Of a stretch of DNA of 64,000 bases, positions 47,179-64,000 are shown piece by piece (the first letter of the stretch is position 1; each line of letters opens with the position of its first letter). A program made the position numbers and the translations under genes. The DNA comes from Aureibaculum algae (GTDB lineage Bacteria > Bacteroidota > Bacteroidia > Flavobacteriales > Flavobacteriaceae). The DNA lies in the NCBI RefSeq assembly GCF_006065315.1, contig NZ_CP040749.1:1502501-1566500 (forward strand). The letters run 5' to 3'. The notes below the pieces were generated by a model. That model saw only the letters and a program-made list of their open reading frames with translations. It did not search any database and was not told the DNA's origin.

Positions 47179-47423
47179 TAAAACGTTGGTTTTATGCTTT
47201 TGTTATGCAGAACGATTGTGCATTGTACTGTTATATTCAAAAATATCAATTCCATTTATTTTTAACGACATTTTTTGTTAAAAGGTATTTGATAGATTTT
47301 TCAGGTGCACAATTTATTTTAAAAACTAAGAAGTTGGTCGTAGTTTATGAGAAATTGCAGCGATATTATGGTATAAAACGGAAGCCTTGTGTTGTTTATG
47401 AATATTGTTGTGTGTAGTTTTAA
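47179..47423. repeat. Possible first attC site of the cassette array
   Basis: A gene-free stretch begins ATTAAAAC and ends at the core-like GTTTTAA (47417-47423). It contains GCTTTTGTTATG, similar to the 5' arm of the attC at 55192, but its two halves pair poorly. The start of the next segment (GTTTTA) is complementary to that segment's end (TAAAAC at 48110-48115). A weak case; the 70-codon plus-strand frame inside is probably noise. Confidence 0.35.
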
Positions 47424-48097
47424 TACATTGCTTGATTGTTTTCGACTTTAAATAATTCCAAACTCATTTTCTGATATATTTCAGATTCCATTTCCAATTT
47501 ACAACCTATTAACATTGGTGCTTCTTCTGAGGTTGTAAAGCACCAGTCTAGATTTTCTGAAAAGAGACAGGTTTCTAATTGAAATCGATATGTACCTTGA
47601 ATCTCAAAATATTTTTCTAAGTCAATATCAATATATTCTTTTTGTAAATTTGAAGCATTAGTATATTCTTCTGAATCGTAGATTAGAAGATTCAACTTTG
47701 ATTTTTCAGACAACTTTTTTAAAGATTCCTTTAGTTTAAATATAGTTAAATTGTCCAAAAAACAAGTTCCGGGTGTTTCCGGTATAAGATTTACAGTTTT
47801 GTTTGAAAAGGGAACATTAAATTGGTTTGCTAAATCCATTATTGATATCGGCCGATAAAGTTTCTCATTATTTAATAAAACGTTAAACTCTTGTTCAATC
47901 TTCACTCGTTTGTTTATTTCCTCAAACGTTTCTTTTTGCAAAGGATAATCATCAAAAGGAAAATTTTCAATTATACCGTATACCCAATGGACGATAAACT
48001 TGGATTCGAAAAATTCAGGGATATAATGTTTCGCGAAATTCCAATTTGTAGATTTTCGATTATTATAGAACTGATGAAAGTCGTTAAAAATGTTCAT
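47420..48097 (-). CDS. Hypothetical protein, cassette gene
   Basis: 225-aa soluble protein, acidic, without signal peptide or known domain. It starts with MNIFNDFHQFYNNRKSTNW. The stop codon (47420-47422) lies within the core-like GTTTTAA, and the ATG is about 18 bp from the core of the next attC, so it fills its segment as a cassette gene does. No function is assigned. Confidence 0.6.
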   Translation of the reverse strand: MNIFNDFHQFYNNRKSTNWNFAKHYIPEFFESKFIVHWVYGIIENFPFDDYPLQKETFEEINKRVKIEQEFNVLLNNEKLYRPISIMDLANQFNVPFSNKTVNLIPETPGTCFLDNLTIFKLKESLKKLSEKSKLNLLIYDSEEYTNASNLQKEYIDIDLEKYFEIQGTYRFQLETCLFSENLDWCFTTSEEAPMLIGCKLEMESEIYQKMSLELFKVENNQAMY

Positions 48098-48290
48098 TTT
48101 TAAATTACCTAAAACGTGTTTGTATATGATACGTTGCGTGGTTTGTCAGGTAATTTAGCAAATAAAAACCAGATAGAAAATCCGCGAGTATTTTCGTAAG
48201 TAAGCCAGCATTAGCAATGGATTATAGCAACCATGTAAAAGCAGTATCCAAAGTTTAGTTAATAACTTTAAGGTTCAAAAACTTATTATT

Positions 48291-49346
48291 ATGAAAACAA
48301 AGGATACTACTAGATCAAAGTTATTTATTGGAATTGACGTACACAAGCGAAGTTGGAAAATTCGTACTGCAACGGATCTTTTTGATGGATCATCGTTAAC
48401 TATTCCACCAGATGCATTTAGTTTAAAAAAGTATGTGGATAGGCATTTTAAGGGATATACTGTTTATTGCTGTTATGAATCGGGTTGTTGTGGCTTTAGT
48501 CATTATCGACATTTTATTTCATTTGGATGGCATGCAAAGGTTGTTAACCCTGCAGATGTTCATCGTCCAGCCAAGGCCCAGTTTCAAAAGACCGACAAGA
48601 TCGATGCACGTATGTTATGTAAAGAATTAAAGGATGGCCGACTCAAAGGAATTCATGTTCCTTCAATAGAACGAGAGCAGTTAAGATGTTTGTTTCGTCG
48701 AAGAAATGAGCTGGTTAAAGAACATCGAAAAATAAAGACTCAAATAAAGATGCAATTGTTGTATTTGGGGATTGAAATTCCAAAGCCATTTGACAATAGT
48801 CATTGGTCTCATAATTTTAGAGATTGGTTAAGAAATTTGACTTTTGAATATCCTACAATGGATTATTGTTTTGAGACACGTCTTATTACCTATGAATATA
48901 TAGATAAGCAAAAGCGAGATGTGAGTACAAAATTACGTGCCTATTGTCGTAAGCATTATAAGAAAGATTATTATTTATTACGATCAGTTCCGGGAGTAGG
49001 AGGCATAGTAGCTTGTGGATTATTATGTGAATTGGGTGATTTAAGGCGTTTTAAAAATTTCAAACAATTAGCCAGTTATGTAGGATTGGTTCCCTGGGTA
49101 CACCAAAGTGGAGATAATCTCAAAACTTCAGGGTTAACCCCAAGAGCAAATCGGCTAATGCGTAGTTATTTGGTAGAAGCTACTTGGCAAGCGTTGCGTT
49201 TTGATCCAGTTATGCAGGCCTATTATCGGTCACATTCAGGTAAAGATGTCAAACGCATATTGGTAAAAGTAGCGAGGAAACTCTTGAGTCGAATTCATGC
49301 AGTAATTAGAACTGAAATTCCTTATGAAGTAGGTGTAGTTAGTTAA
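48291..49346 (+). CDS. IS110-family transposase (DEDD)
   Basis: 351-aa RNA-guided DNA recombinase of the IS110 family. The N-terminal RuvC-like domain has D16 in IGIDVHKRSW, E in CCYESGCCG (about 63) and the DxxD of QKTDKIDARMLC (about 102-106). The C-terminal Transposase_20 domain has LLRSVPGVGGIVACGLLCELG (region about 228-248) and a candidate catalytic Ser in HQSGDNLKTSG (about 272). The frame is intact, so the element may be active. It runs opposite to the cassettes. Confidence 0.92.
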   Translation: MKTKDTTRSKLFIGIDVHKRSWKIRTATDLFDGSSLTIPPDAFSLKKYVDRHFKGYTVYCCYESGCCGFSHYRHFISFGWHAKVVNPADVHRPAKAQFQKTDKIDARMLCKELKDGRLKGIHVPSIEREQLRCLFRRRNELVKEHRKIKTQIKMQLLYLGIEIPKPFDNSHWSHNFRDWLRNLTFEYPTMDYCFETRLITYEYIDKQKRDVSTKLRAYCRKHYKKDYYLLRSVPGVGGIVACGLLCELGDLRRFKNFKQLASYVGLVPWVHQSGDNLKTSGLTPRANRLMRSYLVEATWQALRFDPVMQAYYRSHSGKDVKRILVKVARKLLSRIHAVIRTEIPYEVGVVS

Positions 49347-49660
49347 ATAAAAACATAAAACAAGCTTAAAACTCATTATAAAATTGGCACAAAAGATAGG
49401 ACAACAAAACACCGTAGGTGAAACTCTAATACAGTTATCACATATTTATAGCAAGTTGCCTTGTTTGCCAAAATCATCATAGAGATGCTGGTGGATTCGC
49501 TAAAGACGGATACCACATATAGGATGCGGAGTTTTATAAAGCTAGCATTGAATTATTGATAACGCAAAAAGCGTAATCAACAGTTCAACACTAAAAATAA
49601 TATCATGAATTAAAAAAAAGAAAAATATTGTATATTTAACCTAAGACTCGGGAAAGTGCT
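49347..49660 (+). ncRNA. Candidate bridge-RNA region of the IS110-family element
   Basis: This 314-bp stretch after the transposase has no convincing ORF. IS110-type elements encode a bridge RNA in a non-coding end, which in the IS1111 group is 3' of the gene. CATATAGGATGCGG (about 49520-49535) resembles the right flank (CATAGGATACGATG, about 49664-49677), as expected of a target-binding loop. I did not fold it, so this rests on position and that similarity. Confidence 0.35.
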
Positions 49661-49690
49661 TTACATAGGATACGATGTTGTATGCAGTTT

Positions 49691-51379
49691 TTATATATTT
49701 TCAATATCAAACAAATTATCCAACGCTTGTTTTTTCTCTGTACTTAATGTTGGTACTGAAATGAAAAGTCTATTTTTTGCTCTACTTATTGCAACGTAAT
49801 TTATTCTTTGTTCTTCATCACTCTCTAAATCTGAATTAATTAAAAATTCAGTATCACTTTCATCTTTTAATACTAACAATACATTATTGAATTCATCACC
49901 TTTCGATTTATGTATTGTTTTGTGTAGGCTTAAATCTTCAGGAATTGAGACACAAAGTAATAATTGGTTAAAGGAATAATCTTCATAAAATATTTTAATA
50001 CCACCTCCAGTTACTTTTGAAATGCTATTATCAAGATTTTCTTTTACAAAATTAGAGAAATCTAATAATGAAGAACCTTTATAATCATCATACTTATCCA
50101 ATAGCAGAGTTATATATTTTAATGCTTTGCGTTTACCTTTTAATTTATCCTTTTTATAATTAAATAGTTTCTCTAATTCTTTGATGGAATCTTTAAATTT
50201 ATTTTCCCTTGCATATGCAATCGATTTTATACACGAGTGAATTAATCTTTTTCTTTTACTATTTGAATCCTTTGCAAGTAATTTGTTTAACAGCTTGCTA
50301 TCAAGACCAACACCACTTATCTCAGCTTTCATAGCATTTGATGTGATATTGTTTCTAGAAAGAGAATTAACTTCTTCAACAGAGCAAAGAACCTTAGCTC
50401 TCCTTAACGCTAACGTCATGTCTCCAATTAAAATTTTGGGTTTTTGAATTGATGTATCTCTATAAGATATTTGTGTTATATCTGTTCTAATTGAATTTAG
50501 GAGTTCAATTATTTCATTACTGCTTCTTCTGTTTTCATTTAATTTGTATTCCAAAACATTAGGTAAATTAAAAGTTTCAAATTGAGTGTAATCTGCTCCT
50601 TGAAATTTATATATCGATTGGTATGGATCACCAATTACTCCTGTTATTGCTCCTTCAAAACCAAGAGTCTTAAATATTTCAATTTGAATCGGGTTACAAT
50701 CTTGAAATTCGTCTACAACTAGATAGGGGAATTTGGCGAGTAAAACTTTTGCAACAAAAGGATGTTGTTTAAGAATTTGGTAACTAAAAAAAAGAACATC
50801 ATCGTGATGAATTAACCCTTTTTCCCAAGTCATTTTTTTGTATTCTAAATAAGAATCATTTCTAATTGGATATTTTCCAGCTCTAAAAGGGTATGGCGTT
50901 TTTACTACTAAATCATCGTTGTCTATTTTCCATCTTAATTTTTTAAAAGCATTTACAACTACATCATCTTCTCTAATTCTTTGTTGTCCAGTTCTTGTTT
51001 TCCAATCATTTAAAAAGCTATAGTTAGATAGGACGATATCATCATGACCATCAATCTTACTGATGTCTAAATTATACTGTTCTGCAATAAATGAAACATA
51101 TGGCTTTACAATATGTTTGTAGAAAAAACTATGGATTGTTGAGACTTCTACTTGTGCTGACGAAGTTCCTAAACGACTATAAATAGTTTCTACAGCAGTA
51201 TTTGTGTATGTGATACAGGCTACTTTTCTAGTTATTGATAGCTTACTTGAATTATGTAAAATGTTTTTAATGTGATTAACTAGCCAATAAGTTTTCCCTG
51301 CTCCAGGTCCAGCTGAAACTTTGAAATTATTATCAATATCAGTTATTTTGTAATCAGAGTTAATGATAATTATTGACAT
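49691..51379 (-). CDS. gajB: GajB-like UvrD/PcrA-family helicase (Gabija)
   Basis: 562-aa superfamily 1A helicase. Walker A is VSAGPGAGKT (residues 21-30), motif II VVDEFQDCNPIQ (about 222-233), motif III GVIGDPYQSIYKFQG (about 247-261), motif V/VI HKSKGDEFNNVL and INYVAISRAKNRLFIS (about 528-543). It follows and overlaps by 10 bp an OLD-family ATPase/TOPRIM gene, the GajA-GajB order of the Gabija anti-phage system. GajB is thought to sense DNA ends or nucleotide depletion and activate GajA. Confidence 0.87.
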   Translation of the reverse strand: MSIIIINSDYKITDIDNNFKVSAGPGAGKTYWLVNHIKNILHNSSKLSITRKVACITYTNTAVETIYSRLGTSSAQVEVSTIHSFFYKHIVKPYVSFIAEQYNLDISKIDGHDDIVLSNYSFLNDWKTRTGQQRIREDDVVVNAFKKLRWKIDNDDLVVKTPYPFRAGKYPIRNDSYLEYKKMTWEKGLIHHDDVLFFSYQILKQHPFVAKVLLAKFPYLVVDEFQDCNPIQIEIFKTLGFEGAITGVIGDPYQSIYKFQGADYTQFETFNLPNVLEYKLNENRRSSNEIIELLNSIRTDITQISYRDTSIQKPKILIGDMTLALRRAKVLCSVEEVNSLSRNNITSNAMKAEISGVGLDSKLLNKLLAKDSNSKRKRLIHSCIKSIAYARENKFKDSIKELEKLFNYKKDKLKGKRKALKYITLLLDKYDDYKGSSLLDFSNFVKENLDNSISKVTGGGIKIFYEDYSFNQLLLCVSIPEDLSLHKTIHKSKGDEFNNVLLVLKDESDTEFLINSDLESDEEQRINYVAISRAKNRLFISVPTLSTEKKQALDNLFDIENI

Positions 51380-53427
51380 AATTCTTCTATTGCGTTTTTA
51401 ATATATTGAGGAACATTAAATTCTATAAAATCAGTTGTTCCTTTCTTTTCTAAATTTTTAGCTAGAATGTAAGATAGCTCCAGAGCATTTTCTCCTTTGC
51501 CAACAGAGTTTAAATATCTAGATGCAATAATGGATTTTTTCTTTTCTTCAGCATCTAAAATAGTATTGAGGTTTATAGAATCCTTGATTCTAGTATTTGC
51601 ATCACTATCTCTTAGTTTATCTAATAAATTTTGAACAGTTGAACCTGTAGTAACAAATTCAGACATTAAATCATCTAATTCTTGTTTATTAGTAATTGAG
51701 TCTGTAAGTAGTAATTTTAAAGAAGGATTACTCATTAATAATTCATATTCTAAAGTTTTGCCCTTATCTGTTTCAGGACTAAAGAATGTTATATTTTGAT
51801 GAGTGTCTTTTAAGTATCTATCAGCACTTGGGTTTGATTGATAATCAAAGGTAGCTAAGTCTTGATTGTATTCAAAAGGGTAACATTTTTTAAAATTACC
51901 TCTAGTTTTCTCTTTCCTCTCAGGGTCTCTATCAGTAATACAAACAATTTTTTTATGAATAGTATTCTCTTTCTCGCTATCAAATAAATGCAAGAAGTGA
52001 TCAAAATAACGACCTCCAACATTTATAACTGCAACGTGATTATCCTCCAGTGATTTGCCAATATAATTGGCAAAAATTGACATTAGAAGTTGTTCTGCAA
52101 TACCTTCAACGAATAATATTTTTTGAGCAAATAGCATATCCGATTTCGTTGCATCTAAAAATCTCTGAACGTATTTTTTATTTTTCTCTTCTGGAAATAC
52201 TCTATTAGGATAACCTATTGTGGTTTCTCCATTTTCACTGTGTAAACAAATAATTTCATCTAAAGAAACTGCTGAAGTAATATGGGTAGAATGAGTGGTT
52301 ACAAATATTTGACGAACTTTTTTCTCTTTTTTATTTTCATTCAAAAATTTAAGAAATTTATACTGCATTGCAGGATGAAGGTGAGCTTCTGGCTCTTCAA
52401 TAGCCAGAGTTGTAAAAACTTTAGCATTATTATCTAAGTAATCGACATCTGCGTTTACTTGCATTTTGGCAAGTAATAAAGACATAAAAATTAAATTGTT
52501 ATATCCTAAACCATTATGTGAAGCAGGAATTTTGATACCTGATTCATATTCAACAATTAGTTTAAGAACTGAGTACATTTCATTTTCAGAAATACTTCCT
52601 TCAAAAGTAGGTTTTGCATTATTAAATGAAGCCCCTGTTTTTTCAGCATATGAAAGAATTTCTTGTTTCCCAGCTCTTATTCTTTCACTTAAATCTTCAA
52701 TTAGAACATCTGCTTGTTCTGAAAATGATTCTTTTTTAGCTTTAATTTCTGAATACTTTATTTCTGGTGTTTTGGTTTCATCTATTTTTATTTCGTAATC
52801 CATAAAGAAATCAAATACTTCTCTTAAAAGAGTGTTTCGACCTGTTAGCATATCTCTCTCAACATCTCGAATTGCATCTAAAAATTGAAAATCAATTTTT
52901 TGTAATGATTCAGAATCAGCAGTTGCTTGGTTTGTTATTTCTCCACCCCATATTTTGTATCCGTAATATCTTATAAATTCATGTTTTATTAACTTCCATG
53001 CTTTTTCTATTTCGGTTGGAGTCTCATCAGTCAATGCTGATAATGCTTTTATATATTCTTCATGTTTTTTTTCTGGCAAGAAAAATTCATAGGTTAATAA
53101 TGCTTCGTATGAGCTATCCAGTTTTGTTAGCCAGTTAGAGATAGTTACTAAATCATCTGGAGTTTCTTCTTCTCCTTTTGTTATCGTAACGGATATGGTG
53201 ATTTTTGGAGGAGCAGATTTTAACTCTGCTAATGTGACATTTTTATTAAAGTCGTCTGTATATAGTCGTTTTGGCTTTTCGTTGTCAATGACTAATGATA
53301 GGGCTTTAATTAAGTTGGTTTTCCCTGCGTTATTGTGTCCTATAATTACGTTAACACCATCATTAAAAACAATTTCTTTATCCTTAAAATTTCTGAAATT
53401 ATTTATGTGAATTTTAGATATATACAT
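51370..53427 (-). CDS. gajA: GajA-like OLD-family ATP-dependent endonuclease (Gabija)
   Basis: 685 aa. N-terminal ABC-type ATPase: Walker A IGHNNAGKTN (residues 29-38), then TLAIEEPEAHLHP (about 338-350) and VTTHSTHI (about 365-372). The C-terminal TOPRIM nuclease has the Glu in ILFVEGIAEQLL (about 436) and the DxD of CITDRDPE (about 498-500). GajA cleaves DNA and acts with GajB in phage defence. The pair fills one cassette bounded by complementary core sites at 49678 and 53472, so the whole system looks mobile. Confidence 0.87.
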   Translation of the reverse strand: MYISKIHINNFRNFKDKEIVFNDGVNVIIGHNNAGKTNLIKALSLVIDNEKPKRLYTDDFNKNVTLAELKSAPPKITISVTITKGEEETPDDLVTISNWLTKLDSSYEALLTYEFFLPEKKHEEYIKALSALTDETPTEIEKAWKLIKHEFIRYYGYKIWGGEITNQATADSESLQKIDFQFLDAIRDVERDMLTGRNTLLREVFDFFMDYEIKIDETKTPEIKYSEIKAKKESFSEQADVLIEDLSERIRAGKQEILSYAEKTGASFNNAKPTFEGSISENEMYSVLKLIVEYESGIKIPASHNGLGYNNLIFMSLLLAKMQVNADVDYLDNNAKVFTTLAIEEPEAHLHPAMQYKFLKFLNENKKEKKVRQIFVTTHSTHITSAVSLDEIICLHSENGETTIGYPNRVFPEEKNKKYVQRFLDATKSDMLFAQKILFVEGIAEQLLMSIFANYIGKSLEDNHVAVINVGGRYFDHFLHLFDSEKENTIHKKIVCITDRDPERKEKTRGNFKKCYPFEYNQDLATFDYQSNPSADRYLKDTHQNITFFSPETDKGKTLEYELLMSNPSLKLLLTDSITNKQELDDLMSEFVTTGSTVQNLLDKLRDSDANTRIKDSINLNTILDAEEKKKSIIASRYLNSVGKGENALELSYILAKNLEKKGTTDFIEFNVPQYIKNAIEELCQ

Positions 53428-53465
53428 TGGTTATTTTATTTTGAATGGAGTTGTTTCGTAATTGC

Positions 53466-53820
53466 ATACAACTATTTTATAAACGCAATACGTTTATCTC
53501 CGTTAAAATTATTATAGTTTTTTCTTGTAATTACGTAGCTAAAGCGAACAGCACTTCAATAGGGATGGAGTAGGGTTTTATTTAGCGACTGCCTACCAAA
53601 TATAGCCATAAAATGGCAATACCACAAATGAAAATTTGAGAGGTACAAGAGTTGAAAGTATACAATGAAAACTTAGTTTTTATTACTGTTTGTAATAAGT
53701 TGTTAAAAAAGGCTGTTGCTTTTACTACATCAGGCTTAATATATGATGGGAATTATAAAAGTACTTTAGTGGTAAATTAATGTGGTTTTACTGGTTTTTT
53801 AGCACAGTACTTTGTTGCCT
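53466..53820. repeat. Long attC-like repeat, copy 1 (355 bp)
   Basis: It starts ATACAAC and ends with core GTTGCCT. It shares the family's landmarks with four other copies: ATAAACGCAATACGTTTAT at the start, GGAGTAGGGTTTTATTTAGC, ATAGCCATAAAATGGCAAT, and TTTTTTAGCACAGTACTTTG at the end. This copy has about 37 extra bp (about 53633-53675) compared with the others. Confidence 0.8.
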
Positions 53821-53828
53821 ACCATATT

Positions 53829-54245
53829 TTATCTATTCATCCCGAAACTTTGTCCGAAAATGAGCTCTTCATTTTTATTCCAAGAATAAGTAAAGTAATA
53901 TCTGGGCTTTTCATCCGATTCGGCATGAGTAATGTCCATACAAATTGCGTCCGATTTTTCACCTAAATCATTTATAGGTATTCTAACATCATAAGTGATC
54001 ACATAAGCTTTAATTTGTCCTTCCGCGAAAAGTTTTTCGAATTCCATTGTCATTCCATCAATCAACTTTTGACTTTCGGGAAAATCTGTTTCTTCATTTT
54101 CAATTCCAACACCTACTAATTCGCCATCATTTTTTATTTGTGCTCCAAAAGGATAATATTCTTTTCCTTTATTCAACATGTATTCAGCGAATTGATGACA
54201 ATACTCAATAATTCCTTCGATATCCTTTTCAACTTCTTTTTTCAT
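53829..54245 (-). CDS. Hypothetical cassette protein (138 aa)
   Basis: Small acidic soluble protein with no known domain (KKEVEKDIEGIIEYCHQFAE start; FTYSWNKNEELIFGQSFG end). It fills the segment between repeats: the segment begins GTTGCCTACCATA (53814) and ends with its near-perfect complement TATGGTAGGTAAC (54257), and the ATG is 6 bp from that core. Its leader and promoter must therefore lie in the repeat. Confidence 0.68.
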   Translation of the reverse strand: MKKEVEKDIEGIIEYCHQFAEYMLNKGKEYYPFGAQIKNDGELVGVGIENEETDFPESQKLIDGMTMEFEKLFAEGQIKAYVITYDVRIPINDLGEKSDAICMDITHAESDEKPRYYFTYSWNKNEELIFGQSFGMNR

Positions 54246-54250
54246 ATGGT

Positions 54251-54568
54251 AGGTAACTATTATACAAACGCATTACGTTTATCCCCGTTATAATTAGTAT
54301 AGTTTTTTCTTGTAATAACGTAGCTAAAATGAACAGCACTTCAATAGGGTTGGAGTAGGGTTTTGTTTAGCGACTGCCTACCAAATATAGCCATAAAATG
54401 GCAATAACACAAATGAAAAACTACTCTTAATTATTGTTTGTAATAAGTTATTAAAATAGGCTTTGGCGATTGCTAAATCAAGATTAATATATGATGGGAA
54501 CTATAAAAGTACTTTTGTGGTAAACTAATGTGGTTTTACTGGTTTTTTAGCACAGTACTTTGTTAGCG
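54251..54568. repeat. Long attC-like repeat, copy 2 (318 bp)
   Basis: AGGTAAC to core GTTAGCG. Nearly identical to copies 3 and 5 across its length, including the GATGGGAACTATAAAAG and AGCACAGTACTTTG blocks. Confidence 0.82.
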
Positions 54569-54581
54569 GTAGTTTTTTATT

Positions 54582-55172
54582 TTACCAAACGCAGAGCCAA
54601 TATATTAGTTCATTCTCTTTTTCGTTTGTAGCAATTCCTCTCGAAAATCCATTTTTCCATTTTTCGGGCAAATTATTGTTTTTAGTCAGATACTCTTTAT
54701 TCATAAATTTACCTGATTTACTTTCAAGAACATAGATTTTATTATGTTCAGTCAAATACTTACTATTGAGTCCGAAATCTCTTTCATAAGAATCGAAATT
54801 TGGTATTGGAATTCCAGTTTCTTTTTTTTCGTAATTTAATGTGTCTCCGATTATAATGAATATGCTGTCAGTTGGTTTATAAGATTTTATTTTATTCAAT
54901 TTCAGCTTTCTGATAACAGTATTGAATTCAGTCGAATCTACTTCGTGTGAAAAAATCAAATTAGCCATTCCAATTCCGTAAGCACCTGCTGGATATCCAA
55001 TTGTTAATTGTCTTTCAGATTTTAGAATGTTTGGGAAATGGTCAGTTAATTCAGGATTAAATTCGTTCAACCCTTTAGAATAATTTAATAAAAATCGTTT
55101 TTCATTTTCATTTTTGTTATTCGAACAAGATGTTATTATAATTAATAAAATGAAGTAAAAATTATTTCTCAT
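54582..55172 (-). CDS. Hypothetical lipoprotein, cassette gene
   Basis: 196-aa lipoprotein (hydrophobic residues 5-13, lipobox C16 in IITSCSN). The mature part includes a Gly-rich IGYPAGAYGIGMAN segment and no recognised enzyme motif. It sits in a segment that begins GTTAGCGGTA (54562) and ends with the near complement ACTGCTAAC (55198). Envelope location is inferred from the signal. Function is unknown. Confidence 0.65.
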   Translation of the reverse strand: MRNNFYFILLIIITSCSNNKNENEKRFLLNYSKGLNEFNPELTDHFPNILKSERQLTIGYPAGAYGIGMANLIFSHEVDSTEFNTVIRKLKLNKIKSYKPTDSIFIIIGDTLNYEKKETGIPIPNFDSYERDFGLNSKYLTEHNKIYVLESKSGKFMNKEYLTKNNNLPEKWKNGFSRGIATNEKENELIYWLCVW

Positions 55173-55191
55173 TTAGTTGGGTTCAAATTAC

Positions 55192-56246: not shown

Positions 56247-56260
56247 TTTTTTGTAATTGC

Positions 56261-56579: not shown

Positions 56580-56587
56580 TTTCGTTT

Positions 56588-57046
56588 TTATTCAGCAACT
56601 TTCACAACTTCCCCTATTTCATATAATTCCTCAACCGCCAATTTTAATTTCTGCCAGTTAACACCTTCGACTTCTTTTTTATACTTTCCAGTTGATTCCA
56701 TATATCCAAGTAGAAACCAGGAATCAATATGGCCAAATTCCGGCGGATTTTTTAGAACCACTTCGACGCGTTGCTGAAGTTTTTTATTGTAAAACCCACA
56801 TTCGAGACCATGAAAATTATAATTCCATTTTTTTGAAAGTTCTCCTCTCCTTGGAATATTCTCATTATTTCTAGCGATTAATCGCTCATAGTCTTCCGAA
56901 CTTTCTATGTCAAGATTGAATTTTTCTCCAAGCTTGAACATCAATTCCTTTCCCTCGTTGCGATAATCAAATATGGCTTTTTTGACTATTTCAAGATTGA
57001 TCTTTTTACTAGGTCTTAAAAGATTTTCAATCCACTTTTTAATCAT
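56588..57046 (-). CDS. Hypothetical cassette protein (DUF6896-like)
   Basis: 152-aa soluble protein. ENIPRRGELSKKWNYNFHG-LECGFYNKK and PPEFGHIDSWFLLGYMEST resemble small proteins tentatively grouped as DUF6896, some of which accompany toxins as immunity proteins; this assignment is from memory and weak. The segment begins GTTGTGCTT (56573) and ends GAAGCACAAC (57077), complementary over 9 bp. Confidence 0.6.
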   Translation of the reverse strand: MIKKWIENLLRPSKKINLEIVKKAIFDYRNEGKELMFKLGEKFNLDIESSEDYERLIARNNENIPRRGELSKKWNYNFHGLECGFYNKKLQQRVEVVLKNPPEFGHIDSWFLLGYMESTGKYKKEVEGVNWQKLKLAVEELYEIGEVVKVAE

Positions 57047-57070
57047 TTAATTCAGATTTAGACAAATGAA

Positions 57071-57390
57071 GCACAACTATTGTATAAACGCATTACGTTT
57101 ATCCCCGTTATAATTAGTAAAGGTTTTATTCTTGTATTTACGTTGCTAAAGCGAACAGCACTTCAATTGGGTTGGAGTAGGGTTTTATTTAGCGACTGTT
57201 TACCAAATGTAGCCATAAAATGGCAATAACACAAATGAAAATTTAGTCTTAATTATTGTTTGTAATAAGTTGTTAAAATAGGCTTTGGCTGTTGTTACTT
57301 CGAGGTTGCCTTACCACCATAATTATAGACAGGCTTAATTGGTGAATTAATGTGGTTTTACTGGTTTTTTAGCACAGTACTTTGTTAGGG
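57071..57390. repeat. Long attC-like repeat, copy 4 (320 bp), internally divergent
   Basis: GCACAAC to core GTTAGGG. The first 220 bp and the last 45 bp match the family, but the segment at about 57290-57345 differs: the usual GATGGGAACTATAAAAG block is replaced by TTGCCTTACCACC...AGACAGGC. Possible patchwork of two repeat versions. Confidence 0.78.
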
Positions 57391-58584
57391 TGCGTTTTTC
57401 TTATTTTCCTTTATTATTTCAGGTAATATTTTATTCAATTCAGAATATCTCTCCATATTCATTAGGCTATCACGTACTTCTGTTAATTGGTAAATAAGTA
57501 TTTCGGGAATATTATATTTTACACCAATACTCTTTCGTCTCTCTGTCTCTGTATAGTTTTTGTATTCATCCCATTCAATTCTAGGTGTATTAACTAAATT
57601 TATCTGTTCTTTCAAAATATCAAAAAGTTCTTTTGTTTCGTTTGAATTACTTTCAAAGTAACCAATTTGTTTTAAAATGTCTTTTGGTAATGCGTAAGGC
57701 CAATTTTCTAAAGAATTTCGTCTATGATTATACCAACTTCCTCTTTTAAAATTATGGATTACAATTTTCTGAAGAACAAGAGTGTCAATTGATAGTTCAT
57801 TCCCTTTTGCAAAGGCTGTTTTAATACTGTTCACTTGTTCAACGGAACTTTCAGCGTGCCATTTTTTAAGTATTTCAATTGTTTTACTGTCGTATTCAAT
57901 TCCGTAATTTACTTTCGATTTAGAGATTTCTTTGTCAATGTATTCATAGTCCTTTTCGTATCGTTTAAAATAAGCATTATTAAGTTTTTCTTGGTCAACT
58001 GTAGTTGTTTTAGAAAGTGTAAATGCTGTAATCGTACAAATAAGTAATGAAAGAAATATCCATTTTCCTGCTCGATAAACAAGTCTAACTGAAAACCAAC
58101 TTTGAGCAAAAACTACAATTGGAATAAGAACAAATAAAATCCAATAATCATTATATAGATTTAACTGGTTATCATAACCTGGAGTTCCAAACAATATAAA
58201 TGGCAATATCGAACCAAATCGAGCAATCATCATTAAGATTAACCAAAAAATTAATAAAGCATTTGTTCTTGACAGTTGTTTATAAAGTTTGTCCATTTTT
58301 CTTGTACGAGTTCGATTACCCATCCAAATCCAAATAGTAATTGCAAGTCCTAAGACAGTTGATAGTGAAGCGAAAAAGTAGTTAAAAAAGGTTAACTCTT
58401 GATTTTCTATAATTAATAAGTCGGCTGACGTACTCGTAAAAAACCGAAAAACTTCTCTTGCTTGATTAAAAGCCAAGGAAATTGATAAGGCTGAAATAAA
58501 ACCTGCTAGAATTCCAAACCAAAATCTTTGTTTTCCAATATTTTGAACTGATATTTTGCTCTTATTAAAACTTATTCTTGTCAT
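57385..58584 (-). CDS. Hypothetical membrane protein, cassette gene
   Basis: 399 aa with five predicted TM helices in the N-terminal half (about residues 22-42, 67-88, 110-135, 146-170, 174-193) and a soluble, charged C-terminal domain (200-399) that would face the cytoplasm or periplasm. No known family is recognised. The segment starts GTTAGGGTGC (57384) and ends GCACCCTAAC (58629), complementary over 10 bp. The stop codon lies inside the core sequence. Confidence 0.65.
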   Translation of the reverse strand: MTRISFNKSKISVQNIGKQRFWFGILAGFISALSISLAFNQAREVFRFFTSTSADLLIIENQELTFFNYFFASLSTVLGLAITIWIWMGNRTRTRKMDKLYKQLSRTNALLIFWLILMMIARFGSILPFILFGTPGYDNQLNLYNDYWILFVLIPIVVFAQSWFSVRLVYRAGKWIFLSLLICTITAFTLSKTTTVDQEKLNNAYFKRYEKDYEYIDKEISKSKVNYGIEYDSKTIEILKKWHAESSVEQVNSIKTAFAKGNELSIDTLVLQKIVIHNFKRGSWYNHRRNSLENWPYALPKDILKQIGYFESNSNETKELFDILKEQINLVNTPRIEWDEYKNYTETERRKSIGVKYNIPEILIYQLTEVRDSLMNMERYSELNKILPEIIKENKKNAP

Positions 58585-58622
58585 TCAGTTTTTTGAATTC
58601 AACGGATTTTTGTCATAATGCA

Positions 58623-58819
58623 CCCTAACGGTTTGTGTATGAAACGTAGCGTATAAAAAGACACTAGCTTTTCGGATTAACACAGAGCCGAATTTTTATG
58701 TTTTTCTTATTATCTTTTTTCTCAATAAGCCAAATTTAAAAATTTGGCGACTTCGCAAAAGTGACCAAGCCATTGAATTAAGCCACTAATTTCCATATTA
58801 TTTTTATACGGAGTTACCC
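58623..58819. repeat. attC site of a different family
   Basis: CCCTAAC (58623-58629) to core GTTACCC (58813-58819). The left arm GTTTGTGTATGAAACG faces the right arm TTTTTATACGGA. A perfect 9-bp hairpin (GCCAAATTT with AAATTTGGC, 58729-58748) lies inside. About 197 bp, shorter than the long family. Confidence 0.65.
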
Positions 58820-58826
58820 AACGTTT

Positions 58827-59642
58827 TTATTCAGCTTTTTGTTTTAATTTTAGTTTTTCGCCATTCAATTCAGCCAGTTTACCTTTTTTTAAACGAAATT
58901 CCAAGTCATTAAATTGAATCCATTTCGCACTTGACAATGCAAAACTTATATTATCATCCTTATTCAGGTTTCGAGATTTTAAAATCAATGTATCATCAAT
59001 GTTTTTCCAAAATCCTTCTGTAAAATCAGAACCGTGTCCTTTGTTTATCCAAAATTTGAATGTTCTATCTTCTTTTATAATTAGTTTAGCTTCGAATCTG
59101 TCTTTGGTTCGTCCTTCATATTTGCCATAGAATAATCTTGTTTTTCTATTTGGTGGCTCAATTTGCATTAACGAATACATTTTATCATTAAATAGTTCGA
59201 TGAATTTTTCGTCCCTAAATCCATCTGTACAAGTATGGCAAAATTTTAAATTAGTAATCTCGATATTCTTTAATTTAAGAGTATCAATCATTTTATCAGG
59301 ACAACCAGAATAACCTCCAACAGCACTTACTAAAATTCTTTTTCCATCCAGAAATAGTGCAGTTGCTATTTGGTTAATTCTATTGTCCAACCATTCATTG
59401 TCACTTTCGTTCAATTTAAAATCCTTTCTAAATCCGCTATAGATTTGGATACTACTTATTGTATTTAATTCTGTCTGCAATAATCTACTTTCAGGTTTAT
59501 TTATTGAGTCAGATTCTAAACTTTTTGGAATATAATTTATCAAATCATAATACTCTTTTTCATACAGAGTAGATGATTCAGGATTTTGAGCAAAAATTAA
59601 TGTGCTAAAAATAAAACTTAATATGAAAACTGTTTTTCTCAA
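58827..59642 (-). CDS. Secreted hypothetical protein, cassette gene
   Basis: 271 aa with a signal peptide (residues 1-19, FSTLIFAQ). The rest is beta-rich and contains VSAVGGYSGCPDKM, then FCHTCTDGFRDEKF with two cysteines; no known family. Late segment KLIIKEDRTFKFWINKG resembles a lipocalin-like strand region. The segment runs from GTTACC (58813) to GGTAAC (59654). Function is unknown. Confidence 0.62.
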   Translation of the reverse strand: MRKTVFILSFIFSTLIFAQNPESSTLYEKEYYDLINYIPKSLESDSINKPESRLLQTELNTISSIQIYSGFRKDFKLNESDNEWLDNRINQIATALFLDGKRILVSAVGGYSGCPDKMIDTLKLKNIEITNLKFCHTCTDGFRDEKFIELFNDKMYSLMQIEPPNRKTRLFYGKYEGRTKDRFEAKLIIKEDRTFKFWINKGHGSDFTEGFWKNIDDTLILKSRNLNKDDNISFALSSAKWIQFNDLEFRLKKGKLAELNGEKLKLKQKAE

Positions 59643-59738
59643 ATGTTAGGTAACGTTGGTATAAGGATAGTACGCCAAATAAAAGAAGTTACTTCCATAA
59701 ACTAAACATTGTATTGGCGTATTAGCTTTATACTTTGT

Positions 59739-61581
59739 GTGTGCCCAGCATGGGCATCTTTACCTTACGAAAGTAAGGAATTAATCTAGAGGGTGCAAGA
59801 CCCTTATGGGCAGGGGTAACGCCTTGAACCATTAGTAAGCTGCAAGGTTGCCAACCGTGAGGTTGGGACTGAAGGAAGCAGGACTACAAAGCTCGGTTCC
59901 GACGAACAGAAACCGTATATGAGGCATTAATGCACGGGTAAGCAAACACATCATTGTAACGCCCAAAGAGTACCAAAAGTGCATTTATGTAGATACGGCA
60001 GAGATTGAGTGAAAGAAGATGTCATTACCTGGGGAGGTCTCCAAAGTTACGTGTAACTATATGGAGAAGTCAGCAGAAGTCAAAATAACCAATTACCTGA
60101 TAGGTTGGTGAAGGACAGAACGATAATGGTCTTTAATGAACTTAGGAGTTGTTTTACGTTACGGATAGATTTCCAGTAAAATGATAGCCTTTGATTAAGC
60201 GAGACAGCAAATCAATTTAAGTATTAATGATTAAACAATTAACAAGTAAACAGAATCTAAACGACGCCTATGAGCGGGTGTATCGCAACAAGGGTTCAGC
60301 AGGAATAGACAGGGTTCATATTACTGAACTAAAATCTATATTGCAGACCCAAGGTAAACGATATATTTGGCAAATAGAAAGAGAGACCTATCAGGTGTCC
60401 CCAATATTGGGCGTTGAAATACCAAAAAGCAACGGGAAGAAACGATTACTCGGTATTCCTACAGTTGTTGACAGGGTGTTTCAACAAGCATTGCATCAAG
60501 TTTTGCAACCCATATTCGAGCCAGACTTTCAACAGCATAGTTACGGATTCAGACCACAACGCAATGCCCATCAGGCAATTGCACAAAGCCTTGAGAATAT
60601 CAATTCAGGTTCTAAGGATATAGTAGATATAGATTTAAAGAGTTTCTTTGATGAAGTAGAACACTATATACTTTTAGAATTGATTTACAAAAAGGTAAAA
60701 TGCAAACCAACGATGAAGCTACTGCGTTCATTTCTTAAAGCCCCGATACTGACGGGTGGTAAACTACACAAACGGAAAAAAGGTGTTCCGCAAGGTTCGC
60801 CTTTAAGTCCATTGCTCTCTAATATCTTGCTCAATGAGTTAGATAAAGAACTAGAGCAACGAGGACACCGCTATGTAAGATACGCTGATGATTTCAGTAT
60901 CTACGTTAAGAGTAAAATGTCAGCAAAACGCGTAGGAAATAGTATCTACAAATTCCTGCTAGACAAACTTCAATTGCCAATAAACAGAGAGAAAAGTGGC
61001 ATACGTAAGCCTTTAAATTTCCAAGTACTAGGGTTTGGTTTTGTACCAACCTATAAGAAAGGCGAAAAAGGTAAATATCAACTGGTGGTAAAACCGTCTA
61101 AATGGAAAGAATTTAAGGAAAAACTTAAATATCTTACTAAAAAGACGATACCCACAAGTTTTGAAGAACGTATCGACCGTATCAATCTGTTGATACGTGG
61201 TTGGATAAATTACTTTAGACCGGCATCCATTCAAGCGAAGCTTAAAAAGCTGGAAGAATGGTTGAGAAACCGATTACGGTATTGCATATGGCATCATTGG
61301 AAGAAACCAGAACGAAAACGGAAAAATCTGATTCGTTTAGGTATTGACCAAGGGCAAGCCTACGCATGGAGTCGCACAAGATTAGGAGGATGGGCAGTAG
61401 CACAAAGTCCTATACTAGGTACTACCATTACCATAAAACGGTTAAAAATGAAAGGTTATGTTAGTTTAATCGAATACTACAAACGATAAGTTTCATTATC
61501 GAACCGCCGTATACGAGACCCGTATGTACGGTGGTGTGAGAGGCGAACTCTGTCAGTTACTGGCAGAGCCGTCTACTCGAT
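59739..61581 (+). mobile_element. Group IIC-type self-splicing intron
   Basis: The 5' end reads GTGTGCCCAGCATGGGC, a standard group II start. Domain V (61503-61535, ACCGCCGT ... ACGGTGGT) carries a CGC triad as in class IIC. Domain VI follows and the intron ends CTACTCGAT. It has 1843 nt with the reverse transcriptase in domain IV. It lies opposite to the cassette genes at the GT|T core, as IIC-attC introns do. Confidence 0.88.
60227..61489 (+). CDS. Group II intron reverse transcriptase/maturase
   Basis: 420 aa. The reverse transcriptase domain (about residues 30-290) has the LLGIPTVVDRVFQQALHQVL block, HSYGFRPQRNAHQAI, VPQGSPLSPLLSNILLNELD and the active-site YADD (about 219-222). A maturase domain X follows (about 300-400, INLLIRGWINYFRPAS). 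No HNH endonuclease domain is visible, which suits class C introns that use single-stranded or hairpin targets. The frame is intact. Confidence 0.93.
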   Translation: MIKQLTSKQNLNDAYERVYRNKGSAGIDRVHITELKSILQTQGKRYIWQIERETYQVSPILGVEIPKSNGKKRLLGIPTVVDRVFQQALHQVLQPIFEPDFQQHSYGFRPQRNAHQAIAQSLENINSGSKDIVDIDLKSFFDEVEHYILLELIYKKVKCKPTMKLLRSFLKAPILTGGKLHKRKKGVPQGSPLSPLLSNILLNELDKELEQRGHRYVRYADDFSIYVKSKMSAKRVGNSIYKFLLDKLQLPINREKSGIRKPLNFQVLGFGFVPTYKKGEKGKYQLVVKPSKWKEFKEKLKYLTKKTIPTSFEERIDRINLLIRGWINYFRPASIQAKLKKLEEWLRNRLRYCIWHHWKKPERKRKNLIRLGIDQGQAYAWSRTRLGGWAVAQSPILGTTITIKRLKMKGYVSLIEYYKR

Positions 61582-61600
61582 TGTAAGACGTTGGTGTGTC

Positions 61601-61750
61601 ATGTCAGATTCTAAAGAACGAGACGATATAATTAGGCAATTAGCTGATGCTAATAAAGATTTTAAAAGTACAAATAAATATCTTAGCTGGACATTAATTT
61701 TACTATCCATTCTATTAGTTGTAAAAATATTGCAATTCCTGATATTATGA
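61601..61750 (+). CDS. Possible small membrane protein (49 aa)
   Basis: ATG at 61601 gives a 49-codon frame: a hydrophilic start (SDSKERDDIIRQLADAN) and one C-terminal TM segment (about residues 29-49). It overlaps the 3' end of the minus-strand gene at 61683 by 68 bp on the opposite strand, so one of the two may be chance. It begins 13 bp after the repaired attC core. Unconfirmed. Confidence 0.3.
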   Translation: MSDSKERDDIIRQLADANKDFKSTNKYLSWTLILLSILLVVKILQFLIL

Positions 61751-62177
61751 TAGCCCATTTAGCTCGCTTTCTTGTTTTGGGAAACTCTTTTAAAGTCTCC
61801 TTGGATAATTCTAAATCAACTTTTGATTTTTCAAATTCAAGTTTATCACGATTTCTTTTGTCCTTTAAATCTTTATACAATGCTTTAAATCCACCCTGTT
61901 TTTGGAAATTAAGAGTATTTGAGTTTGCAGAAGCAAATTCTCCGTCTTTTGTAGAGTTACATTTGCAAAGTTCGTATTTTTTAAGTATTCCTAAATACCT
62001 GGTAAATTCTTTAGATGCGTCAAAGTCAGGCGTGAGCGTTCCATACCCTTTTTCGTCAGTCAGTTTTATATGTCCAGATTTAATGAGGTCGTCAGCACTA
62101 ACACTAAAGCTAGTTTTAAGGCATTGGTCTATAATAAAGTCCAATGCCTCAATATCAGATTTATTAAATTCCTTCAT
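61683..62177 (-). CDS. Hypothetical cassette protein with C-terminal TM anchor
   Basis: 164 aa. Soluble N-terminal domain with an EALDFIIDQCL start, then a charged coiled-coil-like stretch (about 100-135, KDKRNRDKLEFEKSKVDLEL) and one C-terminal TM (about 143-160). No known family. Orientation agrees with the other cassette genes. Function is unknown. Confidence 0.6.
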   Translation of the reverse strand: MKEFNKSDIEALDFIIDQCLKTSFSVSADDLIKSGHIKLTDEKGYGTLTPDFDASKEFTRYLGILKKYELCKCNSTKDGEFASANSNTLNFQKQGGFKALYKDLKDKRNRDKLEFEKSKVDLELSKETLKEFPKTRKRAKWAIIISGIAIFLQLIEWIVKLMSS

Positions 62178-62247
62178 TGAATTTTTATTTTTAACGTTCT
62201 ATAATTCATTCCCGCGTAACAGTTGTAAGATTTTTAAATTTTAAATT

Positions 62248-62433
62248 ATGTCTGAAATTAACATATCAGAGTGCAATCCAAAAGTTCAAAAATTCGTTAG
62301 TGATTTTTTTGAAGCAAATGAAGAACTAAATAAATTAGATAAACTTATTACTTTGATAAGGCAAAATAAAAAACTATTTGAAAAATACGATCACGAAATA
62401 AGTTTATCCTTTCGAGGGGAAAACATACTATAA
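62248..62433 (+). CDS. Small hypothetical protein (61 aa)
   Basis: Helical, acidic 61-aa frame starting MSEINISECNPKVQKFVSDF. Its stop at 62433 abuts the stop of the convergent gene at 62434 without overlap, which favours both being real. It is on the opposite strand to most cassette genes. No known family. Confidence 0.45.
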   Translation: MSEINISECNPKVQKFVSDFFEANEELNKLDKLITLIRQNKKLFEKYDHEISLSFRGENIL

Positions 62434-62697
62434 CTATTTAAGCCTTCCTTTCGTTTTATTTTCAAAGTCAACACAACAAAAATCTGTACAGTATAAAATA
62501 CCACTTTTAGTATTTGAATTAGTTGAAAAAATTACAGTTCCTTTAGAATCCTCTTTACATTCATCACACACAAGCCCTTTAAATTCATTTTCAAAGAAGT
62601 TTTTTGCGTCTCCATGAAATTCGCTTTTAAATATTTTTACAGAACTCTCATTTATTTCATCATCATTTATTTCCCTTGTTATAATTTTTATTCCCAT
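62434..62697 (-). CDS. Small hypothetical protein with CxxC pairs
   Basis: 87-aa protein with CDEC (about 44-47) and a later YCTDFCC (about 69-75), which together could bind one zinc ion. No recognised family. It is the last gene before repeat copy 5; the segment end TTACAAC (62756-62762) is complementary to GTTGTAA. Confidence 0.55.
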   Translation of the reverse strand: MGIKIITREINDDEINESSVKIFKSEFHGDAKNFFENEFKGLVCDECKEDSKGTVIFSTNSNTKSGILYCTDFCCVDFENKTKGRLK

Positions 62698-62755
62698 ATT
62701 TTAAATTTTACTTACCTTCTTTCTTTACCCATACTTCTTAACCCTTTTTAATGGT

Positions 62756-63074
62756 TTACAACTATTGTATAAACGCAATATGTTTATCCCCATTATAATT
62801 ATTATAGTTTTATTCTTGTAATAACGTAGCTAAAGCGAACAGTACTTCATTTGGGGTAGAGTAGGGTTTTATTTAGCGACTGCCTACCAAATGTAGCCAT
62901 AAAATGGCAATAACACAAATGAAAATTTAGTCTTAATTATTGTTTGTAATAAGATGTTAAAATAGGCTTTTACTATCGCTACATCAGGCTTAATATATGA
63001 TGGGAACTATAAAAGTACTTTTGTGGTAAATTAGTTTGGTTTTACTGGTTTTTTAGCACAGTACTTTGTTGTGT
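62756..63074. repeat. Long attC-like repeat, copy 5 (319 bp)
   Basis: TTACAAC to core GTTGTGT. It is close to copies 2 and 3 over its full length. Confidence 0.82.
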
Positions 63075-63083
63075 TTAGTTATT

Positions 63084-64000
63084 TTAAAAATTAGCTAATA
63101 ATGTTTCTATTTCAGCAATTATGGGTTCAGTTTGTGGATTAGAATCTGCTTTGGATAAAATATCATAAGTCGTGTTCAATGATTGACTTATTATAGTTTG
63201 TTTCGGTTTTTCTCTTTTTAATTGATTTAAAACTCTTTCTGATTCAGATAAAATATCTTCTTTGTCATCTGCCTTTAATTCTAGTTTATCAACTATTTTA
63301 TTAATTTGTTCAACAAGGTTTTTTATCTCTTCTTTTTTTAAGCTACTTATTTCCAGTTGTTGAGTTATGTTTGTCCCTGTCGCTGTATTAATTTTTGAAT
63401 TATCACCTGTGTTTATAGTGTTCCCTTCTCCAACGTTTGACATATTGTACTGATTTCCCATAATTACATTAATAGTCTTAGTAATATCTTCTTTTACATC
63501 ATCGCTAATATCTTCAATGTTTTTTGGTAAATCTGGAAATTCGGTTTCTAGGTTTAACATAAAATCTAAAAATTTGCTTCTAATTTCAGTTAGAGTTTGC
63601 GTAATTGTAGAAATATGAGTCATTTTCTTTATATCTCTTATTTCGCTTTTAAATCCGCTTTCTTTCATATGGCGAGTTAATAAAGCCCAAAAATCAATAG
63701 GAAGAATTTTAATAAGCGTGTCGTTATCTTTGTGGTTTACATAACTTTCTAATGTTTTTACGCTATCTCGAAATTCAAATTGAACAAAGAAGTTTCTTAA
63801 ATTTTCATCACTAATAAACGAAATTGGAACAGGTGTGTTTTCTTGTAAAGCATAACCTTGTCTTAAAGTACAAGATGAAGTCGCACTACCAACTCTATAT
63901 TCAGGCAGAGTATCACTCATAGAATATCCATTAATCTCCTTATTTACCCACTCTAGTAATTTTTTGTTTTTTAGTCTAGAAGCAAATACTTTAGTCTTGA
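63084..64000 (-). CDS. Large hypothetical protein, 5' end outside window (partial)
   Basis: The frame is open from the stop at 63084-63086 to the window edge with no in-frame stop, so at least 305 codons are present and the N-terminus lies beyond 64000. An ATG at 63918-63920 is internal to a continuous protein-like sequence (RLKNKKLLEWVNKEINGYS just before it), so it is probably not the real start. The C-terminal part contains GNTINTGDNSKINTATGTN and helical charged regions. No known family is recognised. Confidence 0.7.
   Translation of the reverse strand, partial: KTKVFASRLKNKKLLEWVNKEINGYSMSDTLPEYRVGSATSSCTLRQGYALQENTPVPISFISDENLRNFFVQFEFRDSVKTLESYVNHKDNDTLIKILPIDFWALLTRHMKESGFKSEIRDIKKMTHISTITQTLTEIRSKFLDFMLNLETEFPDLPKNIEDISDDVKEDITKTINVIMGNQYNMSNVGEGNTINTGDNSKINTATGTNITQQLEISSLKKEEIKNLVEQINKIVDKLELKADDKEDILSESERVLNQLKREKPKQTIISQSLNTTYDILSKADSNPQTEPIIAEIETLLANF

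Follow-up and report, generated by a model that had tools for sequence, protein, structure and literature searches.

The DNA analyzed here, referred to as the window, is a stretch of 64,000 nucleotides (nt), G000:C1:1502501-1566500, of the single-contig 5.17-Mb chromosome of Aureibaculum algae. Its right part is occupied by an array of gene-bearing segments (cassettes) separated by repeats and hairpin-forming sites. The array is limited by approximately 47.2-47.4 kb and approximately 69.3 kb in window coordinates, is 22 kb long, and thus has its right end past the window; housekeeping genes (names assigned by eye) lie beyond approximately 69.3 kb. The original prediction, made from the letters of the window, had called this region an integron cassette array on the basis of reverse-complementary segment ends. 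In our analysis, the region is very probably a recombinase-less cassette array of an integron-like platform that uses a non-canonical integrase. The features are as follows, in window coordinates; R1 is the covariance model described below, and ORF stands for open reading frame.

48113..48237, plus strand: attC-like hairpin site of the 119-nt class, its far end interrupted by an IS110-family element (R1 E-value 1.8e-13; interruption judged by eye).
48291..49346, plus strand: IS110-family transposase of 351 aa, belonging to the element inside the attC site (NF033542, 215.5 bits against a cut-off of 140; PF02371, PF01548).
49677..53472, minus strand: cassette 1, the Gabija pair, with GajB at 49691-51379 (PADLOC E 4.4e-224) and GajA at 51370-53427 (PADLOC E 6.1e-302); paired ends GTTGTATGCA / TGCATACAAC.
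53473..53813, plus strand: 330-nt repeat A, apparently a short attC-like hairpin plus an IS110-derived insert (repeat comparison).
53814..54257, minus strand: cassette 2, a 138-aa protein without family match (paired ends; ORF).
54258..54561, plus strand: 330-nt repeat B (repeat comparison).
54562..55198, minus strand: cassette 3, a 196-aa protein whose start looks lipoprotein-like by eye (paired ends; ORF).
55196..55381, plus strand: attC-like site of the 183-nt class with a degenerate right end that has no GTT (end-to-end model match, E 0.82; 76% identical to the 1.393-Mb site, E 5.3e-26).
55382..56266, minus strand: cassette 4, a NADAR-domain protein of 289 aa, gene at 55377-56246, start pairing lost (PF08719 E 2e-48; PADLOC PDC-M42C).
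56267..56572, plus strand: 330-nt repeat C (repeat comparison).
56573..57077, minus strand: cassette 5, a DUF6896 protein of 152 aa (PF21837 E 2.3e-16; paired ends).
57078..57383, plus strand: 330-nt repeat D (repeat comparison).
57384..58629, minus strand: cassette 6, a 399-aa protein, also present in congener G514 with other neighbours (BLAST, junctions, block identity).
58627..58815, plus strand: attC-like site of the 183-nt class (weak end-to-end model match, E 1.6; both neighbouring cassettes paired).
58813..59654, minus strand: cassette 7, a 271-aa protein with a TTG start and no family match (paired ends).
59652..59738 (model match to 59739), plus strand: attC-like site of the 88-nt class, 86 nt of it identical to a site in the 0.556-Mb array (R1 E 6.6e-4).
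59739..61581, plus strand: group II intron, reverse transcriptase at 60227-61489, inserted at TTTGT/T inside the R box and opposite to the cassette genes (Rfam RF02001 E 1.2e-26; TIGR04416, 387.8 bits against 300; junctions).
61582..62762, minus strand: cassette 8, with ORFs of 164 aa and 87 aa (minus) and 61 aa (plus) (ORFs; paired ends).
62763..63066, plus strand: 330-nt repeat E (repeat comparison).
63067..64000, minus strand: cassette 9, running past the window, an AbiTii-like protein (PF18864; PADLOC AbiTii).

The Gabija pair is complete within one cassette (49691-53427, PADLOC), and the remaining cargo of the array comprises AbiTii-like and AbiGi-like genes, the NADAR protein, and several uncharacterized genes. 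The AbiGi-like gene (PADLOC) lies with others outside the window, after cassette 9 and up to approximately 69.3 kb. The array behind the recombinase at 0.554 Mb likewise holds candidate defence genes (PADLOC), and the start of cassette 8 has a 26-nt exact run in common with a cassette at 0.556 Mb. The genes had been described as almost all minus strand; this is correct for most ORFs taken as genes, the IS110 transposase, the intron reverse transcriptase, and the 61-aa ORF being different. The predicted repeats between the segments are present as well, but they are of two kinds, five copies of a 330-nt repeat versus shorter hairpin sites.

In integrons, the ends of a cassette are complementary because both belong to one circular cassette, and such complementary ends were found here. 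Six of the seven predicted pairs were recovered within 1 base (49677/53472, 53814/54257, 54562/55198, 56573/57077, 57384/58629, and 58813/59654), and the exact complementary runs agreed with those listed in the prediction; the fourth base of the pair 53814/54257 is mismatched, as the letters given in the prediction already show. The seventh start, at 61582, showed no pairing as it stood and matched 62762 once the split start was rejoined: a group II intron (59739-61581) separates the first two bases of GTT at 59737-59738 from the remainder that begins at 61582. Of the 10 positions lying past GTT/AAC, 7-9 match in each of the seven true pairs (mean 8.1), versus a mean of 3.6 for wrong pairings, and in a permutation test the true assignment alone reached its sum (1/5040). 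When G.T was counted as a pair on the plus strand, the true pairs rose to 8-10 of 10 and the wrong pairings to 5.5, a gain that gave an early hint of a strand effect. Since the segment 55198-56266 lacks a matched start, one site of the window was regarded as degenerate.

Since the segments start and end with inverted repeats, they might be small transposons, each bounded by terminal inverted repeats of its own. This we consider scarcely credible, since the repeats vary by segment and find their best match within the same segment, unlike those of a transposon family, since Pfam finds no transposase among the cassette genes of the window, and since the stems between segments covary as units.

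The comparison with related genomes that had been proposed as a check came out in favour of the prediction. In two congeners the left flanks of the array are 95-97% identical to ours (97.2% and 94.8%) and the right flanks approximately 94-95%, and mostly different cassettes occupy the same site. The distance between the flanks is 22 kb in our genome, 12.2 kb in G514, and approximately 8-9 kb in G513, and the genes in between are mostly different. The cassette 57384-58629 occurs in G514 as well, one cassette is common to G514 and G513 (91%), and all three genomes have, at the right array end, a gene that by eye encodes an acetyltransferase-like protein. For the cassette shared with G514, the right limit of identity falls within a base of ...GCACCCTAAC and the left limit is the AAC of the repeat. 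Gain or loss of cassettes between relatives at the core was thus seen, with the caveat that block identities differ: per 100-nt block, the gene of the shared cassette is 93-100% identical and its 330-nt site 85-95%. The paired ends and the different cassettes at one site together bear out the claim of a cassette array.

The 330-nt repeat, with five copies in the window and at least 29 full or partial matches genome-wide (40 of the 69 candidates were scored), raises another explanation, namely that dispersed repeats shuffle genes passively by homologous recombination and that the end pairing is a fossil. The copies are 70-94% alike across the genome, and in the shared cassette the gene is better conserved than the repeat segments, both of which suit such an explanation. 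Against it, the examined junctions lie at GTT, and the end pairing persists in other genera whose sites are unlike; we therefore hold it to be very improbable.

No match above the cut-off for IntI (TIGR02249, 265) was found in the complete genome. The genome search revealed four ORFs of 381-386 aa that partly match the integron integrase family. The recombinases at 2.76 and 3.81 Mb are identical 381-aa proteins, those at 0.554 and 1.394 Mb are 386-aa proteins with 95% identity, and one recombinase is 98% identical to an Aureibaculum luteum protein. In both pairs, the DNA past the stop codon is the same through a hairpin and GTTG and then continues into different cassettes. For 2.76/3.81 Mb, the identity runs through ...CCCTTCGTTG, after which the first cassettes differ; for 0.554/1.394 Mb, 46 nt are common up to ATATGTTG, followed by divergence. 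Three first cassettes end with the complement of their start, TATTGCCAAC for GTTGGCAATA, GATGACAAC for GTTGTCATC, and TGTGGGCAAC for GTTGCCCACA. The arrays at 2.76 and 3.81 Mb contain several blocks that are at least 99% identical, with the differences between the blocks; a 6.9-kb difference has its junction at GTT, and two other differences look like insertion sequences. The listed cassette genes adjoining the recombinases run in the same direction as the recombinase. An insertion point of the attI type beside the recombinase gene, as known for integrons, was thus seen in the sister copies and in the hairpin-GTT arrangement of relatives, the automatic test being weaker. No recombinase-family match was present at 1.395-1.925 Mb, that is, none within 150 kb of the window array.

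The best 80 named loci with relatives of the recombinase came from Flavobacteriia, Cytophagales, Bacteroidales, Saprospiraceae, and a few others; 78 of them were tested, the other two (L189 and L215) having matches that run up to the end of the contig. In relatives, the stop codon often precedes a palindrome, 3-7 nt, and GTT, an order that a strict rule recognized in 34 of the 78 loci. The strict rule picked none of the four loci of our own genome, whose stems are bulged, and it found the hairpin-GTT on the 3' side in 0 of 11 canonical IntI loci, where flanks were short. A GTT fixed by the strict rule had a complementary end of at least 9 nt in 16 of 21 loci (of the 78, those in which the strict rule found a hairpin and no less than 1 kb follows) versus 43 of 758 random GTT. 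In a hand-picked GTT set, 15 of 24 reached p <=0.05, and four of the nine others had less than 500 nt downstream. Furthermore, internal sites chosen by the stem alone had complementary ends in 75 of 92 cases versus 28 of 718 nearby GTT; each chain was begun at whichever GTT had the best complementary end, a choice that biases the start and leaves the 92 internal tests unbiased. The contigs of 26 of the 78 relatives (L145, L147, L151, L154-L156, and others) end within 350 bases past the recombinase match, as if arrays defeat assembly. A 395-kb Persicobacter plasmid (L222) carries a recombinase relative, 43% identical, with a zinc-finger-like ORF upstream, and Vibrio furnissii and Sinorhizobium fredii (L224, L225) carry tyrosine recombinases beside IS91-family transposases, 32% and 38% identical to the present recombinase family over approximately two thirds of it.

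The 381-aa recombinase scored 238.8 bits with NF040815 (XerA; cut-off 220) and 198.6 with TIGR02249 (cut-off 265), and the one 386-aa copy that was scored gave 184 and 177, both below cut-off. The box-to-box spacing was 58-59 aa in 38 of the 39 measurable family rows and 63 aa in one, compared with 100 aa in all six IntI rows that could be measured (three family rows and three IntI rows gave no measurement), and residues 178-242 of IntI4 stayed unaligned with the family recombinase. By spacing and alignment, the recombinases lack the IntI-specific insertion of approximately 42 aa, and hence the additional domain of the integrase of canonical integrons. In a tree, the nine IntI rows formed one clade (100/100) with all family rows outside; the recombinases are thus not monophyletic with IntI, and with long branches their nearest neighbour is unsure. 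Approximately 110 residues precede the SAM-like domain. The best PDB match of the recombinase is 4a8e, an entry titled probable tyrosine recombinase XerC-like; an AlphaFold model of the recombinase was of moderate confidence (mean pLDDT 76.8, pTM 0.49, 11 sequences). Upstream of the recombinase, 65 of 107 loci have a small, divergent gene with a zinc-finger-like motif, CxxC...GR..(FY)C...C; neither of the copies compared with Pfam and NCBIfam (131 and 114 aa) gave a match. As for the predicted integron in its canonical sense, it was not supported by these results: no genome match exceeds the IntI cut-off, the recombinases are without the IntI insertion, and none lies within 150 kb.

According to the literature, attC sites are structurally conserved and carry a bottom-strand 5'-AAC-3' core (PMC4792948). 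Sites of this type were found here, although the AAC/GTT was required in the site choice, so that its invariance is by construction. Site lengths cluster near 55, 84, 119, and 183 nt. When 24 sites of relatives, drawn from 15 loci, were aligned, a 19-pair stem had 96.9% of its cells paired, compared with 75.2% after shuffling and 31-50% after sliding, and 15 of the 16 inner stem pairs change on both sides and thus covary. One G.T pair is invariant (24/24), another G.T occurs in 18 of 24, and the 16 inner pairs have no fixed bulge. On the top strand, the inner (L) arms contain 183 A.C versus 14 G.T, besides 1442 Watson-Crick pairs and 96 others, and position 10 of the R arm (outer arm) is A.C in 58 of 74. 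In 78 of 88 sites the more stable fold is that of the bottom strand, and in 2 both strands are equal; the 88 are those of 112 sites with at least 9 nt. Canonical attC sites are reported to use extrahelical bases for strand choice (PMC4792948), and by our analysis the G.T wobble pairs could do that job here.

The 24 sites, chosen from 44 listed (57 in the length class) and located in other genomes, were used to build the covariance model R1; the genome of at least one training site (G095) is among the genomes searched. An unconstrained search for AAC-stem-GTT sites was, depending on its setting, overly strict or too noisy (74 matches in a 44-kb control at the looser setting), and the covariance model was used instead; Rfam contained no attC-like family with a match in the window. 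The structure-based sites expected in the window were confirmed in part: R1 recognized 48113-48237 (E 1.8e-13) and 59652-59739 (E 6.6e-4), while the others were weak. As controls, the 44-kb part of the window gave best matches of E 1.0 and 1.5, and the 20-kb L039 gave none up to E 5. In our own genome, at least 50 matches at E <=0.01 were obtained (150 of 4232 candidates scored), all but three in known clusters; the three lie at 2.02, 2.70, and 3.03 Mb. Every match at 1.21-1.69 Mb has plus orientation, with the genes on the minus strand, and at 1.98-3.83 Mb all matches but the one at 2.275 Mb are on the minus strand; perhaps site orientation is tied to replication direction.

Among 296 genomes of the order, 93 had an R1 match at 1e-6 and 81 a recombinase relative at E <=1e-50. 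Both were present in 60 genomes, the recombinase only in 21, sites only in 33, and neither in 182 (Fisher 2e-21), and sites were found in 14 of the 14 genomes with full-length recombinase matches 51-100% identical. In a sample of the class, R1 matches occurred in 159 of 295 genomes, a figure to be taken as an estimate because the E-values of the model are rough and the controls were window parts, not shuffled genomes. Canonical IntI exceeded the cut-off in 1 of the 295; this genome (G328) has one R1 match besides.

A canonical integron or CALIN (at least two attC sites without a nearby integrase), with IntI elsewhere in the genome or lost, would account for the architecture, the AAC/GTT core, and an intron of the IIC-attC type as in integrons, and canonical IntI is common in the phylum sample, where it exceeded the cut-off in 70 of 247 genomes. 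It does not agree with a complete genome devoid of IntI above cut-off, with the 1 of 295 class genomes having IntI versus 159 of 295 having site matches, or with sites that adjoin a non-canonical recombinase with an attI hairpin. R1 was also silent up to E 5 in 12 canonical IntI loci, a weak control with flanks of at most 1.5 kb. We regard such an origin as most unlikely. Plain dispersed repeats, terminal-repeat transposons, and a canonical integron were all considered and rejected on the evidence given for each.

The right half of the 330-nt repeat is 72-84% identical, in stretches 51-159 nt long, to the 3' terminal part of a gene for an IS110-family transposase located elsewhere. Two IS110 copies were compared with the insert, an intact and an interrupted one, and both align with the right half only. 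At its left end the repeat has a short hairpin, which starts directly after AAC, and many partial copies retain one half only. Because the right half is IS110-like and the left end a hairpin, the 330-nt repeats have the appearance of short attC-like sites in which an IS110-derived insert lies beside the GTT of the R box. A hairpin TATAAACG...CGTTTATA, sometimes altered, accompanies nearly all of 20 aligned copies of the left half, some of which are without the right half. Since the IS110 copy at L050 adjoins a different attC-like hairpin, the comparison favours that TATAAACG...CGTTTATA is part of the host attC rather than of the insert. The consensus RNA fold of the left half of the insert was -1.0 kcal/mol, with no conserved fold over the 20 copies, so that a guide RNA still encoded by the insert is unsupported; recombination at a site already bearing the insert was dropped as well, since block identities give it no firm support. 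Short IS110-derived elements without a transposase gene occur genome-wide (e.g., window 53473-53813, L041, L046).

Four sites of the window have no insert (48113-48237, 55196-55381, 58627-58815, and 59652-59739), two of which are weak in the model; one of the four is broken by an IS110 element and one by the group II intron. The window protein at 48291-49346 has the DEDD and Transposase_20 domains that define the IS110 family, and an identical protein is found in the 3.81-Mb array. Group IIC-attC introns are reported to insert at TTGT/T in the attC bottom strand, opposite to the cassettes (PMC7923331), and the window intron follows this rule in sequence, strand, and orientation. At L105 (G000:C1:2783044-2784700), an insertion sequence with terminal repeats (by eye) lies in an attC-like GTT core, and the sister array is without it.

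From these data a mechanism can be proposed. The recombinase, or paralogues that act on the window array in trans, would excise and insert circular cassettes, and recombination would take place at G/TT of an attC folded as a single strand. As seen from the genes, this would be the bottom strand, because the fixed A.C mismatches are G.T wobble pairs only there. The attI would consist of a half-site in which GTT adjoins a palindromic stem. As integrase, a non-canonical relative of IntI without the IntI-specific domain would serve; in this genome and close relatives it would carry approximately 110 additional residues at its N terminus, and a zinc-finger partner, transcribed divergently, would often accompany it. 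IS110-type elements and the group IIC-type intron would parasitise the attC-like sites.

Several points weigh against the reading of an integron-like platform. The recombination is inferred from sequences rather than observed. The window array is remote from all four recombinases, and therefore the choice of its serving enzyme is a guess. IntI is described as possessing a specific domain (PMC4792948). The insertion of the integron-like subgroup is reported to be essential to the function of integrons, though not fully conserved (PMC8138268), and an enzyme lacking it must therefore operate somewhat differently. The sites 55196-55381 (E 0.82) and 58627-58815 (E 1.6) were matched end to end, no better than controls. 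In the first automatic test of relatives, in which all GTT within 200 nt competed, p 0.05 was reached in only 17 of 52 loci (26 of the 78 being too short). No site was found in 21 of 81 recombinase genomes and no close recombinase in 33 of 93 site genomes, mismatches of which thresholds and draft genomes may explain some. Finally, the repeat of the shared cassette is more diverged than its gene, so that site and gene, as far as block identities indicate, are not simply co-travelling, and conversion among repeats or homologous recombination may contribute.

Taken together, the machinery is very probably an integron-like system with a different integrase, and this system is probably widespread in the class. 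It would work in the manner of an integron and is not filed as one because the IntI domain is absent. Going further, we lean toward a second integron-type platform, either independent of IntI or representing a stage before its domain, that is standard in the class Bacteroidia: a XerA-like integrase with a zinc-finger partner, a hairpin attI, attC sites that mark their strand by fixed G.T wobbles in place of extrahelical bases, and defence genes among the cassettes, overlooked as searches require the IntI domain. Integrons are considered rare in Bacteroidetes, and a complete-genome survey reported one complete integron within Bacteroidetes proper, in Salinibacter ruber (PMC9024848). If the sites occur in approximately half of the genomes of the class, a major cassette-exchange system has been missed. 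The system would also test the purpose of the IntI domain, a related enzyme seeming to handle folded attC without it, and how the folded strand is chosen. The defence cargo (Gabija, AbiTii-like, AbiGi-like) may tie cassette exchange to the turnover of phage defence. Among the titles and abstract openings listed by searches of the open-access literature, none describes the system; most subscription papers and all bioRxiv preprints were outside this scope, and an earlier description is therefore possible.

Compared with integrons, the system has tandem cassettes mostly in one direction, structure-conserved sites with a bottom-strand 5'-AAC-3' core, an insertion point at GTT beside a recombinase, complementary cassette ends, and arrays without a recombinase. 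Unlike in integrons, the recombinase is without the IntI-specific insertion and has an extra N-terminal region, the paired cassette ends extend over 9-10 nt and are devoid of the GTTRRRY consensus reported for integron cassettes (PMC7923331), the strand asymmetry lies in fixed G.T wobbles, the attI itself is a palindromic hairpin, and a divergent zinc-finger gene is common. The attI lies 3' of the recombinase gene, as reported for archaeal integrons (PMC9668308). The window array may correspond to a CALIN in having attC-like sites without an adjoining recombinase, those at 48113 and 59652 being recognized by our own model, and differs in that no match above the IntI cut-off exists anywhere in the genome. 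With the XerA-type tyrosine recombinases (NF040815), the 381-aa protein shares a score above the family cut-off, whereas the recombinase here is linked to cassette arrays and attI hairpins, has four copies, and carries an N-terminal extension. As with IS1111-attC and IS110 elements, the IS110-family transposase and the IS110-derived inserts sit in attC sites, but five sites of the window hold short derivatives without a transposase gene. The window intron, putatively of class C, shares with group IIC-attC introns its place in the R box (TTTGT/T) and an orientation contrary to that of the cassette genes, and differs from them in that its host site belongs to a non-canonical system.

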